Origin: Cyanobacteria bacterium DS2.3.42
GTDB taxonomy: Bacteria > Cyanobacteriota > Vampirovibrionia > Obscuribacterales > Obscuribacteraceae
Length of the DNA: 44,841 nucleotides
Reading direction: 5' to 3'
NCBI GenBank assembly: GCA_013823055.1
Contig: PNLN01000175.1
Coordinates: forward strand, 1-44,841
Position 1 is the stretch's first letter. Every line of letters begins with the position of its first letter. A program made the translations under genes and the position numbers. Positions 6,719 through 13,170 of this stretch are shown here, piece by piece. Below the pieces are notes generated by a model, which saw only the letters and a list, made by a program, of their open reading frames with translations, made no database searches and was not told where the DNA came from.

Positions 6719-7411
6719 TCAGATGCGGAGTGTCTTAACAGTTCCGGCACTGCCTATGATCACGCGCTCGACAATGTCGACAAATAAACCGTGTTCAACT
6801 ATTCCTGGCACCGCGGACAGTTGCTGAGCCAAGGCTCTTGGATCGGCGATCAAACCAAAGTCACAGTCCAAGATCCAATTGTTTTCATCAGTAAGGAAAA
6901 CGGCTCCCTCTCGTTTTCTGAGCACACTTGCCGCACCCATATCTTTGATTGTTTGCTGAATCAATCCGCAAGCGAATGGAACTATCTCAATGGGAAGATG
7001 GAATTTTCCCAGGCGCTCTACAACTTTTTTCTCGTCAACGATAATCACAACTTGCTTCGACGCGAAGGCGACGATTTTCTCGCGCAACAGTGCGCCTCCG
7101 CCGCCCTTGATCAAGCAAAGCGAAGGTTCAACTTCATCAGCACCATCAATGTCCAGATCGAGCGTCGGATAGTCATCCAATGAAACAATCGGAATCCCGA
7201 CACTTTCAGCCAACGCTGCTGTTGAATTAGATGTCGGAACACCTTTGATCTTGAGACCCTGCTTCACCCGCTGCCCGAGCAACTGCACCGCAAACACTGC
7301 CGTTGATCCGGTGCCAAGTCCAAGCACCATGCCGTCGGTCACGAGTTCCACTGCCGCTTTCGCTGCTAATTGTTTTTCGTCGTCAGCATTCATGTTGTAG
7401 CACACTTCCAT
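6719..7411 (-). CDS. rpiA: Ribose-5-phosphate isomerase A (start possibly 7393)
   Basis: GLGTGSTA, PTSNSTAALAE, LDLDIDGADEV, LIKGGGGALLREKIVA motifs of RpiA. Confidence 0.97.
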   Translation of the reverse strand: MEVCYNMNADDEKQLAAKAAVELVTDGMVLGLGTGSTAVFAVQLLGQRVKQGLKIKGVPTSNSTAALAESVGIPIVSLDDYPTLDLDIDGADEVEPSLCLIKGGGGALLREKIVAFASKQVVIIVDEKKVVERLGKFHLPIEIVPFACGLIQQTIKDMGAASVLRKREGAVFLTDENNWILDCDFGLIADPRALAQQLSAVPGIVEHGLFVDIVERVIIGSAGTVKTLRI

Positions 7412-7428
7412 TCTTTTTCTGTATCACA

Positions 7429-9264
7429 CTAGTTTGGCGGGAGAACAACTTTCTCCCATTGCTTTCTCAGATTCTCGTTTTTCAAATCCGTCTGACGATC
7501 GCTTTCTCTTTCGATTGCAGCGGCTTTTTCTTTTCTCGCTTTTTCGTCTCGCTCCCGCTTTTTCTTTTCTTGAAGAATACGATTCAAATCGCCTGTAGCT
7601 TTCTTCATCGACTCATATTGTTTTTGCCTTCCGTAAAACTCCGCCATTGCATGAACAACTTCAGCATCGTCGGATTGAATCGCCTGAGCTCTCTTCAAGT
7701 AGCTGTCCGCCTCGGCAATATGTCCTTCCTCCTCTTCAATTTTGCTGAGTTCAAGCAGAACAAGCTTCTTAGGTTTGGGTCTCGGGATCATCAAAGCAAA
7801 TTCTAGCGCCTTTAGATAGTAACCTTTTGCATCATGCGAATTTATATGAGTGTACTTGCTGCTGAAGCCTAACTTATAATTGGCATCATATTTGGCCTCG
7901 ACAGCAGACTTATCTGTAAGCGGAAGCGGCATGTCGGCTACTTCCTGATAGTAACGTCGTGCAGCTGATCTATTTTGAGCACCGGCCTCGCAATCACCAA
8001 GATCGACCTTCAAAGCGGCAATGTATGTAGGCGATTCTTTCGCGGCAATCGCCAACTCAAGAGCCTTAGTCAAGTCACTGCGCGCCTGGTCGAGCTTTCC
8101 TTCCTTAAAATTTTTCCGTGCAGTCCAGCGCAAAGCTCTTGCTTGTTCATGTTGCGTTTGTTTTAGGATGATCGCAGCTTGTTTTTCATTCTCCTCATTA
8201 CCGCGCAAGTAAGTTGTGTATACAACAGCTCCGGCACTCAAGGTCATTACCGCGATTGCAAGTGCGATTATGATCCGGCTAATGGATGCATTTCCCGTTA
8301 CTTTGAGTCCGAGAAATAGTCTCTCTAATTCTTTGCGCACGGAAAGCGTATCAGGATATCTGTCTTCCGGTTTTTTCTCCAGGCACTTCATGACGATTTT
8401 GTCGATCGACTCAATTTCTTTGATGTTGCGGCAAACGTTTGTCAAAGATTGAGGCCTTTCTTGCAGGTGTTTGACTATGGTGGCAAGTGCATTTTCACCG
8501 GCTAGTGGAGGTTTGCCCGCAAGAGCCTCATACATTACACAGCCAAGTGAGTACACGTCCGAGCGTGAATCGACCTTACTACCGGAACACTGCTCAGGGC
8601 TCATGTAGAGCGGACTGCCAAATACTTCTCCTGTTTTTGTCAGTGCTTGATCATCATTGTTTTCAATTTTTGCAATGCCGAAATCAACAAGCTTAAGCAC
8701 CTCTTGACCCTTCTCCTGACAGAGCACAAAATTGCTCGGTTTAATATCGCGATGGACAACATTATTTTCGTGAGCGTGACTGAGCGCATCGCAAGCCTGG
8801 ACCATAATCGCCAGCCACCGGCCGACTTGAAGCCCGCCTTCTTTTTTGATTTCGCTTGAGAGCGGAAACCCTTCGAGATAGCTCATCACAAGGTATGGCA
8901 TGCCGTCTTCTGTGATATTGAAGTCGTGCACTTTGACGATGTTTGGGTGTTCCAGTCTGCTGGCTGCCTTTGCCTCTTGTTGAAAACGCATCGAATCGAT
9001 CTGGTTGGAACCACCTTGAGGAAGCAAAAGTTTGAGCGCCACAAACCTATCTAACGCCAGATCATGCGCCTTATAAACAACGCTCATGCCACCGGTGCCG
9101 AGCTTTTCTTTGAGCTCATATTTGCCAAGCCGCGTGCCTTCGACCGGAATTTTTTGATCACCGCCGGAAGAACTCACAGCGACAAGCGTTGACTCGCCAT
9201 CAGCATCGGCGCCCACGACCGACTTTGCGAACTCAGTTGGCTCGATCGGGTCTCCAGGAGACAT
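7429..9264 (-). CDS. Serine/threonine protein kinase with TM segment and C-terminal TPR-like repeats
   Basis: LGTGGMSVVYKAHD, VVHRDIKPSNFVL, VDFGIAK, GSPLYMSPEQ kinase motifs; TM (ISRIIIALAIAVMTLSAGAVVY); helical repeats afterwards. Confidence 0.95.
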   Translation of the reverse strand: MSPGDPIEPTEFAKSVVGADADGESTLVAVSSSGGDQKIPVEGTRLGKYELKEKLGTGGMSVVYKAHDLALDRFVALKLLLPQGGSNQIDSMRFQQEAKAASRLEHPNIVKVHDFNITEDGMPYLVMSYLEGFPLSSEIKKEGGLQVGRWLAIMVQACDALSHAHENNVVHRDIKPSNFVLCQEKGQEVLKLVDFGIAKIENNDDQALTKTGEVFGSPLYMSPEQCSGSKVDSRSDVYSLGCVMYEALAGKPPLAGENALATIVKHLQERPQSLTNVCRNIKEIESIDKIVMKCLEKKPEDRYPDTLSVRKELERLFLGLKVTGNASISRIIIALAIAVMTLSAGAVVYTTYLRGNEENEKQAAIILKQTQHEQARALRWTARKNFKEGKLDQARSDLTKALELAIAAKESPTYIAALKVDLGDCEAGAQNRSAARRYYQEVADMPLPLTDKSAVEAKYDANYKLGFSSKYTHINSHDAKGYYLKALEFALMIPRPKPKKLVLLELSKIEEEEGHIAEADSYLKRAQAIQSDDAEVVHAMAEFYGRQKQYESMKKATGDLNRILQEKKKRERDEKARKEKAAAIERESDRQTDLKNENLRKQWEKVVLPPN

Positions 9265-9415: not shown

Positions 9416-10963
9416 TTGGTGCAGAGCCGTCTCTATCCATTCAATAATCACTCAAGAAAATCACTCCTTCTTTCGACACTTGTGGCATCGAACATACTCT
9501 CTGGCGGCTGGCAGATAAAAGCTTTCGCTGAAACCAAGAAAGTCAGGGAAGACCCAACCGTGGTTGAAGCACGCACCTTGATTGAAGCCAACAAGGTCGC
9601 AGGTGCAGAAGCAAAACTCGCCGCAGCATTGCGCTCGAATCTTGCCAATGACAGTATTCGCATGCTTCATGCTGACACGCTCTACCAACTCGGGCGTTTT
9701 CACTTCGCTGCAGATGAAATCAAAGTCGTACTCGAGCACGAGCCGAACAACGCAGAAGCCGTCCTGTTAAGCGGCAAAATATTTCAGAGCATGCGACACT
9801 CGGTAGAAGCAATAGAAGCATACAAGAAATTTCAGTTGCTGAAACCCGATGATCCGCGCAGCCAGCAATACGGAGCCTTGATTGTCGTTCTGGAAACAGA
9901 AACGCGAAATGCAGCCCAAAAGAGACACACAGAGAATTCTGGCGATGATTATCTTGCCGCAGTTGCAGGCAGCAACCTGCTCAGATGGAAAGCCGATAAG
10001 CCGATTACTGTCTATGTGAAAGACGGAACGGGAGTTGAGGGTTATCGGACGGAATACGAAGAATCGCTTAGACAAGCCTTTGACGAATGGACAGAGGCGA
10101 CCGCAGGGAAGATCAAATTTGTATTCGTAACTGATCCCAGTACGGCTCAAATGTCTGTGCTTTGGACTAATGATTTGCATGCTCCGGCGATGACTGCAGA
10201 AGCTGGAATTGCCAGAACATCTTTCGGAGGCAATGGCATCGAAAATGCTGAAATCTCACTGCTCACTCTTGACCCACTGAAAGATGGACCCCTGGGAAAA
10301 AATCGCCTGTTCAATACTTGCTTGCACGAAATTGGCCATGCGCTTGGTCTGCAAGGGCATAGTCCTTACCCTGAAGACATCATGAGTGGAACACTAATTG
10401 TTCAACAAGGTCTTTCTCCGCGTGATATTCGCACCATTAATCGGCTCTACTCCAATGCAACCGTAGAAGAGCGTAAATTGCCTGACAAGGACGAATACGG
10501 TCGTCCCTTACCTCCGGCAGTTTTGTGTCAAAGGCATGTGCAGGAGGGCTCTGTAGCCGCCGGAAACAATCAGTTCGAGAAGGCTATCACTGAATTTGAA
10601 GCGGCACTGAAAATAGACCCGAAGCAAGAGCGCGCACGAGAGGGAATAGCCATTGCTTACAATAATATGGCAATCGAAAAAGACACGAATTCAGACAAAG
10701 CAGTAGAGTTATTCCGAAAGGCACTTTATTGGGATCCCACCTGCGATGTAGCTCGAGGAAACCTGAATTCCTATCTGCAATCAATGGGTATGGACCCGAA
10801 GTCTTTTGATGTTCGTGTAAAACTCGCCGAAAAGTGCTTGGAGCAGAAGGATACTCGTGGTGCTATTGTCGAGTATACAGAGGCGCTCATTTACAAAGCG
10901 GACGATGCTATTCGAAAAAAGCTTGAAACCCTGCAAGCAAGAAAAGCGCTTCCTCACTCTTAG
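9416..10963 (+). CDS. Exported TPR protein with matrixin-like zinc metalloprotease domain
   Basis: Signal-like N-terminus; TPRs on both sides of HEIGHALGLQGH (HExxHxxGxxH) and DIMSG Met-turn. Start TTG 9416 or GTG 9419, with GGGAG just upstream. Confidence 0.9.
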   Translation: MVQSRLYPFNNHSRKSLLLSTLVASNILSGGWQIKAFAETKKVREDPTVVEARTLIEANKVAGAEAKLAAALRSNLANDSIRMLHADTLYQLGRFHFAADEIKVVLEHEPNNAEAVLLSGKIFQSMRHSVEAIEAYKKFQLLKPDDPRSQQYGALIVVLETETRNAAQKRHTENSGDDYLAAVAGSNLLRWKADKPITVYVKDGTGVEGYRTEYEESLRQAFDEWTEATAGKIKFVFVTDPSTAQMSVLWTNDLHAPAMTAEAGIARTSFGGNGIENAEISLLTLDPLKDGPLGKNRLFNTCLHEIGHALGLQGHSPYPEDIMSGTLIVQQGLSPRDIRTINRLYSNATVEERKLPDKDEYGRPLPPAVLCQRHVQEGSVAAGNNQFEKAITEFEAALKIDPKQERAREGIAIAYNNMAIEKDTNSDKAVELFRKALYWDPTCDVARGNLNSYLQSMGMDPKSFDVRVKLAEKCLEQKDTRGAIVEYTEALIYKADDAIRKKLETLQARKALPHS

Positions 10964-10997: not shown

Positions 10998-11774
10998 CTA
11001 ATTTTCAACTTGCTCCGCTTTTTCTTGAAACTGCTCCCAAGATTGCACTGTGCTTTTGGGTGCAGGATGCTGTTTGTCATACACAATCAAAACATTAGTG
11101 AGGGGACGTCCGGCCTTAACGAGTATGGACCCGTTATAGGCAAGCGCGCGTGATGCACCTCCGTCCAAATTCATAGCTTCATAACAGCCAATCTTTTTCA
11201 TCAAATCGGCTTCCTTCTCCAGAGAAAGTCCATACATAAAAGTGACGAGATAGATGCGGTCTTTGCTGGCTGGATATCCGAGCGCCTGGCGTGGACCGAT
11301 CGTGAGCACATGTGAATCCGTGAATCCTTCAATATCCGGATGAACCCAGACTTCACCCTGCCTGAGCAATCGCGGTCCGCACGTCAAGGAGAACCAATGC
11401 TTATCCCATTGCGGTTGTCCTTCCGCGCGTGCCGTCACCATCTCCAGTTTGTTTTCGGCTCTAATACCAAGAGTGGTGCCATAATTTTCCCAGCGGCTGT
11501 ATTTAAGCACCTTACCGTCGGAAACTAAATTGCCCATGACCCGCTGCTCTTTGTCCTTGCTGAAAAAGGTTCCATTCATCAGCACGGCGCCTTTGTGGGC
11601 GGCAACAAAAGACTCAAAGTTTTCCGCACCATAAGAAACACTTGCGCTGTTAGCCTCCTTTGCGTTGTGAGGCAAAAGCACCGAAAGATAGGTGTCATCG
11701 TCAGTTAAATCAATTGTCGTTTGATAAAACGGAATTCCATCGATTTTTCGCTTTACGAATTTGACCGGATTTTT
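10998..11774 (-). CDS. Phosphodiester glycosidase (NAGPA/DUF2233-like) domain, 3' part of a probable frameshifted gene
   Basis: GAVLMNGTFFSKD, GPRQALGY, MNLDGGASRALAYNGSILVKAGRPLTNVLIVY. The frame stays open upstream of the annotated GTG (11681) to a TAG at 11775-11777, with plausible domain sequence (NPVKFVKRKIDGIPFYQTTIDLTDDDTYLSV). Confidence 0.75.
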   Translation of the reverse strand, partial: KNPVKFVKRKIDGIPFYQTTIDLTDDDTYLSVLLPHNAKEANSASVSYGAENFESFVAAHKGAVLMNGTFFSKDKEQRVMGNLVSDGKVLKYSRWENYGTTLGIRAENKLEMVTARAEGQPQWDKHWFSLTCGPRLLRQGEVWVHPDIEGFTDSHVLTIGPRQALGYPASKDRIYLVTFMYGLSLEKEADLMKKIGCYEAMNLDGGASRALAYNGSILVKAGRPLTNVLIVYDKQHPAPKSTVQSWEQFQEKAEQVEN

Positions 11775-12076
11775 CTACCCCTGATTCTCTTATTCGCTTT
11801 CTGTGGCGGTGGTACGAAAAAAGGCGGCGGCTCAGGCAGTCCGACCTCTGCCAATTCCTCCTTAGTGGGCGGCGGGATCGAAAATCGTGGAGGCTCGGGC
11901 CACTGAGTTTTTACTCCCTGAGTTGGTTGCCCCGGCGTCTCAATCGGTGTTGGACGCATCAGCTCTTTAAACTTTTCCTCAAGCACACTGCACCCACTCA
12001 ATAGAAGCAAGCTGCTGACCGCCAGACTGAGCCGGAAAACACTTCTAGAAGCAGAGGTCCTTGTCTTACGCATCAT
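11753..12076 (-). CDS. Lipoprotein N-terminus with proline-rich linker, 5' part of the probable frameshifted lipoprotein-glycosidase gene
   Basis: Signal with lipobox (LSLAVSSLLLLSGC), Pro-rich linker (PPPTKEELAEVGLPEPPPFFVPPPQ), abrupt end in the overlap with the glycosidase frame; 4-bp ATGA overlap with the upstream gene. Confidence 0.65.
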   Translation of the reverse strand: MMRKTRTSASRSVFRLSLAVSSLLLLSGCSVLEEKFKELMRPTPIETPGQPTQGVKTQWPEPPRFSIPPPTKEELAEVGLPEPPPFFVPPPQKANKRIRGRKIRSNS

Positions 12077-13170
12077 CGTCCTAGCGTCGTATAGAGGTCG
12101 CCAGGCGGCAATTCGTAGAGCGCGCGCAGTGTTGCGTAGTCATTCTTGGTAACTGCCGTATTGCTCGAAAATGAAGTCATCTCCCGGTAACTGACCGTCT
12201 TTCCTTGCCCACACATCAAGTCATCGATATTGTTGCTGTGCTGGGTCAATCCGAGCACATGCCCAAATTCATGCGCGCTCGTCTTGCGCAATTCGGTAGG
12301 CACTCGCGAGCCCCACTTCCTCAAATACTCTGTCTCGATATGCACTATGCAACGCGCATTCGGTGTTCTCGTCCAGGGATAGAATGTTCGGCCAACACTG
12401 CCGGCACCGCTTTCCGGGCACCAGAAATATAATACATCTGCTTTGGTAGGATCATCGACAAATTCAAATGAAACGATGCCTTCACTGGCTACCCAACCCC
12501 AGTCGTTGATACCATTTTTGACCATATCTCGATATTGGGGAACGTAGTGGACAACAGTTTCTAATCGTTTGAAAAAAGCTGGGCTATCAAACATCGAATA
12601 TAGAGCTTTGCATTTGTTCGAATCAAGCTCTGGTCCAACAAAGCCACGCGGAAGCTGCAACCCGTCGGAGACCCAGACCTTGATTGGACCTTTTCCTTTC
12701 TCCCAGCGCATCAATTTACCGTTTTCCACCTGAGAATAGGGCTCGATGCCGTGGAATTCTCTGCGCCACTGTTTTAAAGACTTCATGGCCAGGTTACTGA
12801 ACTCCGAGTTGGGCGAAGTCATCACGACCACACGGCAAAGTGCATGTTCAGCGGTTTTTATATCATTAGCATAAAGAGCAGCGGCACCCAAATAGAAATT
12901 GACGGAAACATCATCGGGATTAAGTGCAAAACACTGTTTGAAAAGCTTCGTCGCCTCAACATAGTTGCGTTGCAGATAAAAACCAAATGCCCTTTTCATT
13001 AACGCTTCTGCGTTCGGAGTCGCAGTTTTAGCCTTCTTTCGAGTGGAAGGGGAAACGCGTGCGCAAGCAGGTTTTGCACCAATAGTGGTGCCGCCTGAAA
13101 TAACGCCGATTGCAATTGCAAATGCGACGTGCTTTCGAAATGTTGTCTTTGTTTTCTCAATCGAACTCAA
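12073..13170 (-). CDS. Exported TPR protein with matrixin-like zinc metalloprotease domain (paralogue of 9416-10963)
   Basis: Signal-like N-terminus; TPR; HEFGHVLGLTQH and DLMCG Met-turn. Confidence 0.88.
   Translation of the reverse strand: MSSIEKTKTTFRKHVAFAIAIGVISGGTTIGAKPACARVSPSTRKKAKTATPNAEALMKRAFGFYLQRNYVEATKLFKQCFALNPDDVSVNFYLGAAALYANDIKTAEHALCRVVVMTSPNSEFSNLAMKSLKQWRREFHGIEPYSQVENGKLMRWEKGKGPIKVWVSDGLQLPRGFVGPELDSNKCKALYSMFDSPAFFKRLETVVHYVPQYRDMVKNGINDWGWVASEGIVSFEFVDDPTKADVLYFWCPESGAGSVGRTFYPWTRTPNARCIVHIETEYLRKWGSRVPTELRKTSAHEFGHVLGLTQHSNNIDDLMCGQGKTVSYREMTSFSSNTAVTKNDYATLRALYELPPGDLYTTLGR

Follow-up and report, generated by a model that had tools for sequence, protein, structure and literature searches.

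A predicted NAGPA-family lipoprotein gene, most likely interrupted by a private one-base deletion in a Candidatus Obscuribacterales draft genome

The locus studied here raises the question of why a reading frame with the marks of a lipoprotein comes to its stop just where a second frame, for a phosphodiester glycosidase and displaced by a single nucleotide, has become open. Are these two genes, one gene whose product is recoded or switched, or one gene that has been broken, be it in the cell or only in the deposited sequence? The window (the whole stretch of 44,841 nucleotides that was analysed) forms contig 2 of a draft assembly, of Candidatus Obscuribacterales / Melainabacteria type, that comprises 4.18 Mb in 271 contigs and is 64% complete. 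Its close relatives, the nearest at a DNA identity of about 81%, are metagenome-assembled genomes of Candidatus Melainabacteria, Cyanobacteria and Candidatus Obscuribacterales, and from the kind of relatives and the draft statistics we infer that the window's genome is a metagenome assembly as well. The features of the locus are:

12073..13170, minus strand: upstream gene, TPR and matrixin-like (Peptidase_M10) protein (open reading frame and Pfam)
11753..12076, minus strand: lipoprotein half, N-terminal; 107-aa open reading frame with signal peptide, lipobox LSGC and Pro-rich linker
11992-11990, minus strand: Cys codon of the lipobox (LSGC) of the lipoprotein half
11777-11775, minus strand: in-frame TAG bounding the glycosidase frame upstream (sequence reading)
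11774-11770, minus strand: A5 run at the junction, in the overlap of the frames (sequence reading)
11755-11753, minus strand: TAA, stop of the lipoprotein frame (sequence reading)
10998..11774, minus strand: C-terminal half, NAGPA / phosphodiester glycosidase domain; 258 aa plus stop (Pfam PF09992, E 3.2e-23)
11679..11681, minus strand: GTG, first standard start codon of the glycosidase frame; the sequence upstream is ACGATGACACCTATCTTTCG
11079..11585, minus strand: Pfam NAGPA match, model positions 5-169 of 169 (profile search)
11000-10998, minus strand: stop of the glycosidase frame (sequence reading)

The earlier note had traced the lipoprotein frame to the TAA and the glycosidase frame back to the TAG, with the A5 run between them, and its coordinates are all correct. 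The last eight codons of the lipoprotein half before the TAA are off-frame. At its other end, the TGA of the TPR/matrixin-like gene overlaps the lipoprotein ATG (ATGATG), so that the two are probably co-translated. This upstream gene is also present in the genus relatives L029 and L030, and was not found at the corresponding place in L026, L027, L028 and L031. A second matrixin-like gene (9416-10963, plus strand) faces the locus from the opposite side, and an Rfam search of the window returned no match.

What decides between the readings is above all the state of the gene in related genomes. Among the 49 other genomes of the family we found 20 orthologues, six in the same genus (85-93% identity over the glycosidase half) and 14 in others (57-65%); at a threshold of E <= 1e-40, 29 of the 50 family genomes gave no match for the gene. 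In every one of the six from the same genus, and in 13 of the other 14, a single open frame of 340-512 aa runs through the junction and the match is free of internal stops; most of these translations were read directly, and that of L149 was taken from search output. The fourteenth, L017 (G019:C128, minus strand, match 6968-7477), is likewise open across the junction and is broken further downstream, where a frameshift after about query residue 171 costs it the C-terminus; its N-terminal part lies outside the sequence seen. In that other genus of the family the gene thus seems to decay independently. A split at the junction occurs in the window copy only and in none of the 20 orthologues. The two frames of the window correspond, end to end and with zero residues missing, to the two halves of these single proteins, the lipoprotein half being 61-80% identical to the N-terminal part of the continuous orthologues. 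In certain other genera of the family the protein has a different N-terminus. The frame change of one nucleotide is therefore real in the deposited sequence and beyond chance, and the proposal of the earlier note that one lipoprotein-anchored, NAGPA-like protein has been split by one base receives strong support from the orthologues. The arrangement that would have spoken against it, two separate genes with a proper Shine-Dalgarno sequence and start for the glycosidase, is not what the orthologues have.

In a DNA alignment, the window is one base short of its relatives at the junction, whose codons there read GGC AAA AAA AAT, GGT CGA AGA AAT, GGA CGC AAA AAT, GGC AGA AGA AAC, GGA AGG AAG AAT and GGA AAA AAG AAC. 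The loss can be placed in or beside the A5 run, within AGAAAAA (11776-11770, minus strand). It cannot be assigned to that run alone, because losing a base before or after the G at 11775 leads equally to a protein of the relatives' type (G-R-K-N or G-K-K-N). The suggestion that an additional A in the A5 run restores the frame is thus right in that one base is lacking, and goes too far in assigning it to the run.

As for the nature of the protein, the C-terminal half belongs to Pfam family PF09992 (NAGPA), scoring 83.2 bits against a curated cut-off of 25 and covering nearly the whole of the model. Among the solved structures of the NAGPA / phosphodiester glycosidase family (PDB 6pkg/6pki, the uncovering enzyme, and 3ohg, a DUF2233 protein), it matches such entries as 6pki and 3ohg by sequence, including the NLDGG motif, although overall identity is low and the window protein adds a bacterial lipoprotein signal and a Pro-rich linker. 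An NCBIfam search gave no match. Read by eye, the window's lipobox is LLLLSGC and that of all six genus orthologues (L/M)(S/T)GC, as expected of lipoproteins. For L026, the intact orthologue from SJ878, AlphaFold gave on six sequences a model with a pLDDT of 35, too low for use. From its sequence, the intact protein of the genus is predicted to be a lipoprotein that carries a NAGPA-type domain outside the cytoplasm; phosphodiester glycosidase activity and anchoring in the membrane would follow from this, and glycan phosphodiesters are perhaps its substrate, judging by family and signal alone. The same genome has a second NAGPA-domain gene, a 609-aa frame without internal stops on contig 1, so that the organism would keep such a domain were the break genuine.

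Between the GTG at 11681 and the point downstream where the Pfam match begins (11585) there are 32 codons, so the claim that a start there cuts into the domain does not hold for the Pfam model itself. It does hold in a wider sense, as about 31 residues would be dropped with positions that are conserved in family-level orthologues (F106, Y117 and L123), and for that reason this GTG is an unlikely start.

Both halves of the gene are under strong purifying selection, with a dN/dS far below 1. Compared with the nearest species, SJ878, the upstream half has a dN of 0.114 and a dS of 1.34, and the downstream enzyme half a dN of 0.037 and a dS of 1.38. Across 245 codons there are 15 amino-acid differences, six of which fall on the window branch, two on the sister branch and seven on neither with certainty; by a rough estimate, freedom from constraint for a tenth of the branch would have produced tens of changes. 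The slight excess on the window branch (six against two, which are small numbers) fits error and mutation alike. Relaxed selection or additional disabling changes, as would mark a pseudogene, were not seen, and further stops are absent, which does not exclude a very recent pseudogene. It follows from the selection on both halves that the break is either extremely recent or unreal.

Is the assembly then prone to such errors? We compared 0.84 Mb of the window's genome with about 1.9 Mb of G006. In 118 orthologues (about 45,000 codons), the window copy is the sole genuine gene of this genome with an internal frameshift, and the assembly is therefore not indel-rich. Four other frameshift or stop flags were, after inspection of the DNA, judged to be upstream non-coding conservation, start-site artefacts or spurious open reading frames. 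The remaining, fifth flag, where a gene in L058 meets a stop at its residue 10, was judged from its position alone to be a start-site difference. With the comparison turned round, the search output suggests an internal shift in two genes of G006 (their partners are L078 5495-6445 and L082 11330-13312). Both genomes thus appear to have singleton frameshifts of this kind, at about 1-2%.

The same comparison brought up two conserved stretches upstream of genes. One, L078:3640-3948 (plus strand, contig C30 of the window's genome), covers about 300 nt before a SpeH-like gene (ATG 3949; the name comes from reading the sequence rather than from a family search) and shares about 90% of its bases with G006, including one block in which 50 of 50 are identical, while farther upstream identity falls to roughly 55-78%. 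The segment L078:3700-3950 folds better than shuffled sequences (z -2.5), and the stretch had no Rfam match at gathering score; it is possibly an undescribed leader RNA. The other, L060:17500-17640 (minus strand), lies ahead of a well-conserved gene and has bases that are conserved in G006 as well as several in-frame stops; it looks like a non-coding leader rather than a protein.

Taken together, we consider it very probable that this is normally a single gene, which in the window carries a private one-base deletion, either an error of consensus or assembly or a recent mutation, and that no programmed switch is involved. In the genus the gene is one open frame of about 363-387 codons, encoding a lipoprotein signal and lipobox, a Pro-rich linker and a NAGPA-family domain. 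In the window's genome, as assembled, one base is missing at the boundary of linker and domain, so that the sequence as deposited would give rise to a truncated lipoprotein of 107 aa only, without the enzyme. Such a loss would be private and recent, and we propose no programmed or regulated switch. The uninterrupted orthologues, the joining of the halves, the low dN/dS in both, the mere six changes on the window branch and the single frameshift in 118 orthologues all favour this reading. Antonov et al. 2013 (PMC3711429) expect most singleton frameshifts whose homologues are intact to be errors of sequencing, and Cooley and Wright 2024 (PMC11017572), whose study does not extend to metagenome-assembled genomes, trace many supposed pseudogenes of bacteria to errors of assembly. 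Like the singleton frameshifted prokaryotic genes of those studies, the window copy has a one-base change in one genome, intact homologues and no recoding motif, and we see no notable difference; the genome here is a draft in 271 contigs, and the portion of it that was compared shows a low rate of indels. The mechanism is ordinary. As to its cause, we infer with a slight lean that the base was lost in consensus or assembly, which has roughly even chances, although the scarcity of indels in the rest of the compared sequence speaks against an assembly rich in errors throughout. A genuine and very recent loss-of-function mutation or strain polymorphism is a serious contender at somewhat less than even chances; real loss of the gene is plausible given its absence from the search results of 29 family genomes and its decayed look in G019.

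Could the window's lineage nevertheless have turned the break to use? A lineage-specific form of recoding or switching, in which the short lipoprotein is accompanied by occasional full-length enzyme through slippage, seems to us very improbable. Slightly more doubtful still is a programmed -1 ribosomal frameshift or transcriptional slippage at the A5 run that would yield the full-length protein beside the short one. The P-site AAA in AGA AAA ATC could indeed re-pair one base back, which gives exactly the join observed, but an X XXY YYZ heptamer is absent in frame, the site varies rather than conserving any slippery heptamer, and the orthologues cross it in frame with differing bases (GGTCGAAGA, GGACGCAAA, GGCAGAAGA and others). 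Moreover, the 85 nt of RNA downstream fold no better than shuffled sequences (z 0.31), which speaks against a stimulatory structure. Selection against slippage-prone A/T runs is evident in many bacteria from about nine nucleotides (PMC1088944), a length that A5 does not reach, and the window has 143 exact A5/T5 runs, with several other A/T runs of at least five in this same gene.

Phase variation, in which the length of the A run would differ between cells and turn a surface enzyme on and off, is just as hard to credit. A surface-exposed product, a homopolymer at the break and the patchy presence of the gene in the family would all suit it, but A5 is shorter than the 7 nt used as a cut-off for phase-variation tracts (PMC3711429), the tract is not conserved in relatives (L026 has A8 there) and none of the orthologues is in an off state at the site. 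Of the three causes offered in the earlier note, the assembly indel and the recent pseudogene thus stand, whereas a phase-variable or slippage site falls away with a run so short, common and unconserved, at which no orthologue shifts frame. Least probable of all is a pair of functional genes, one for a short lipoprotein and one for a glycosidase that would stay in the cytoplasm and begin at GTG 11681 or, by re-initiation, close to the TAA at 11753. Neither frame has further stops, but no orthologue has this arrangement, and the glycosidase frame has neither a Shine-Dalgarno sequence nor a standard start near 11753. Its first ATG, GTG or TTG is GTG 11681, which lacks a Shine-Dalgarno-like sequence and, as a start, would omit a conserved stretch together with the signal peptide.

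For a single gene that has lost one base, the annotation should join both halves in one interrupted gene, and the glycosidase of 227 aa that starts at the GTG should not be read as a cytoplasmic enzyme. What the locus shows instead is a lipoprotein-anchored protein of the NAGPA type, as predicted from its sequence, with conserved counterparts in six of the genus's seven other genomes.
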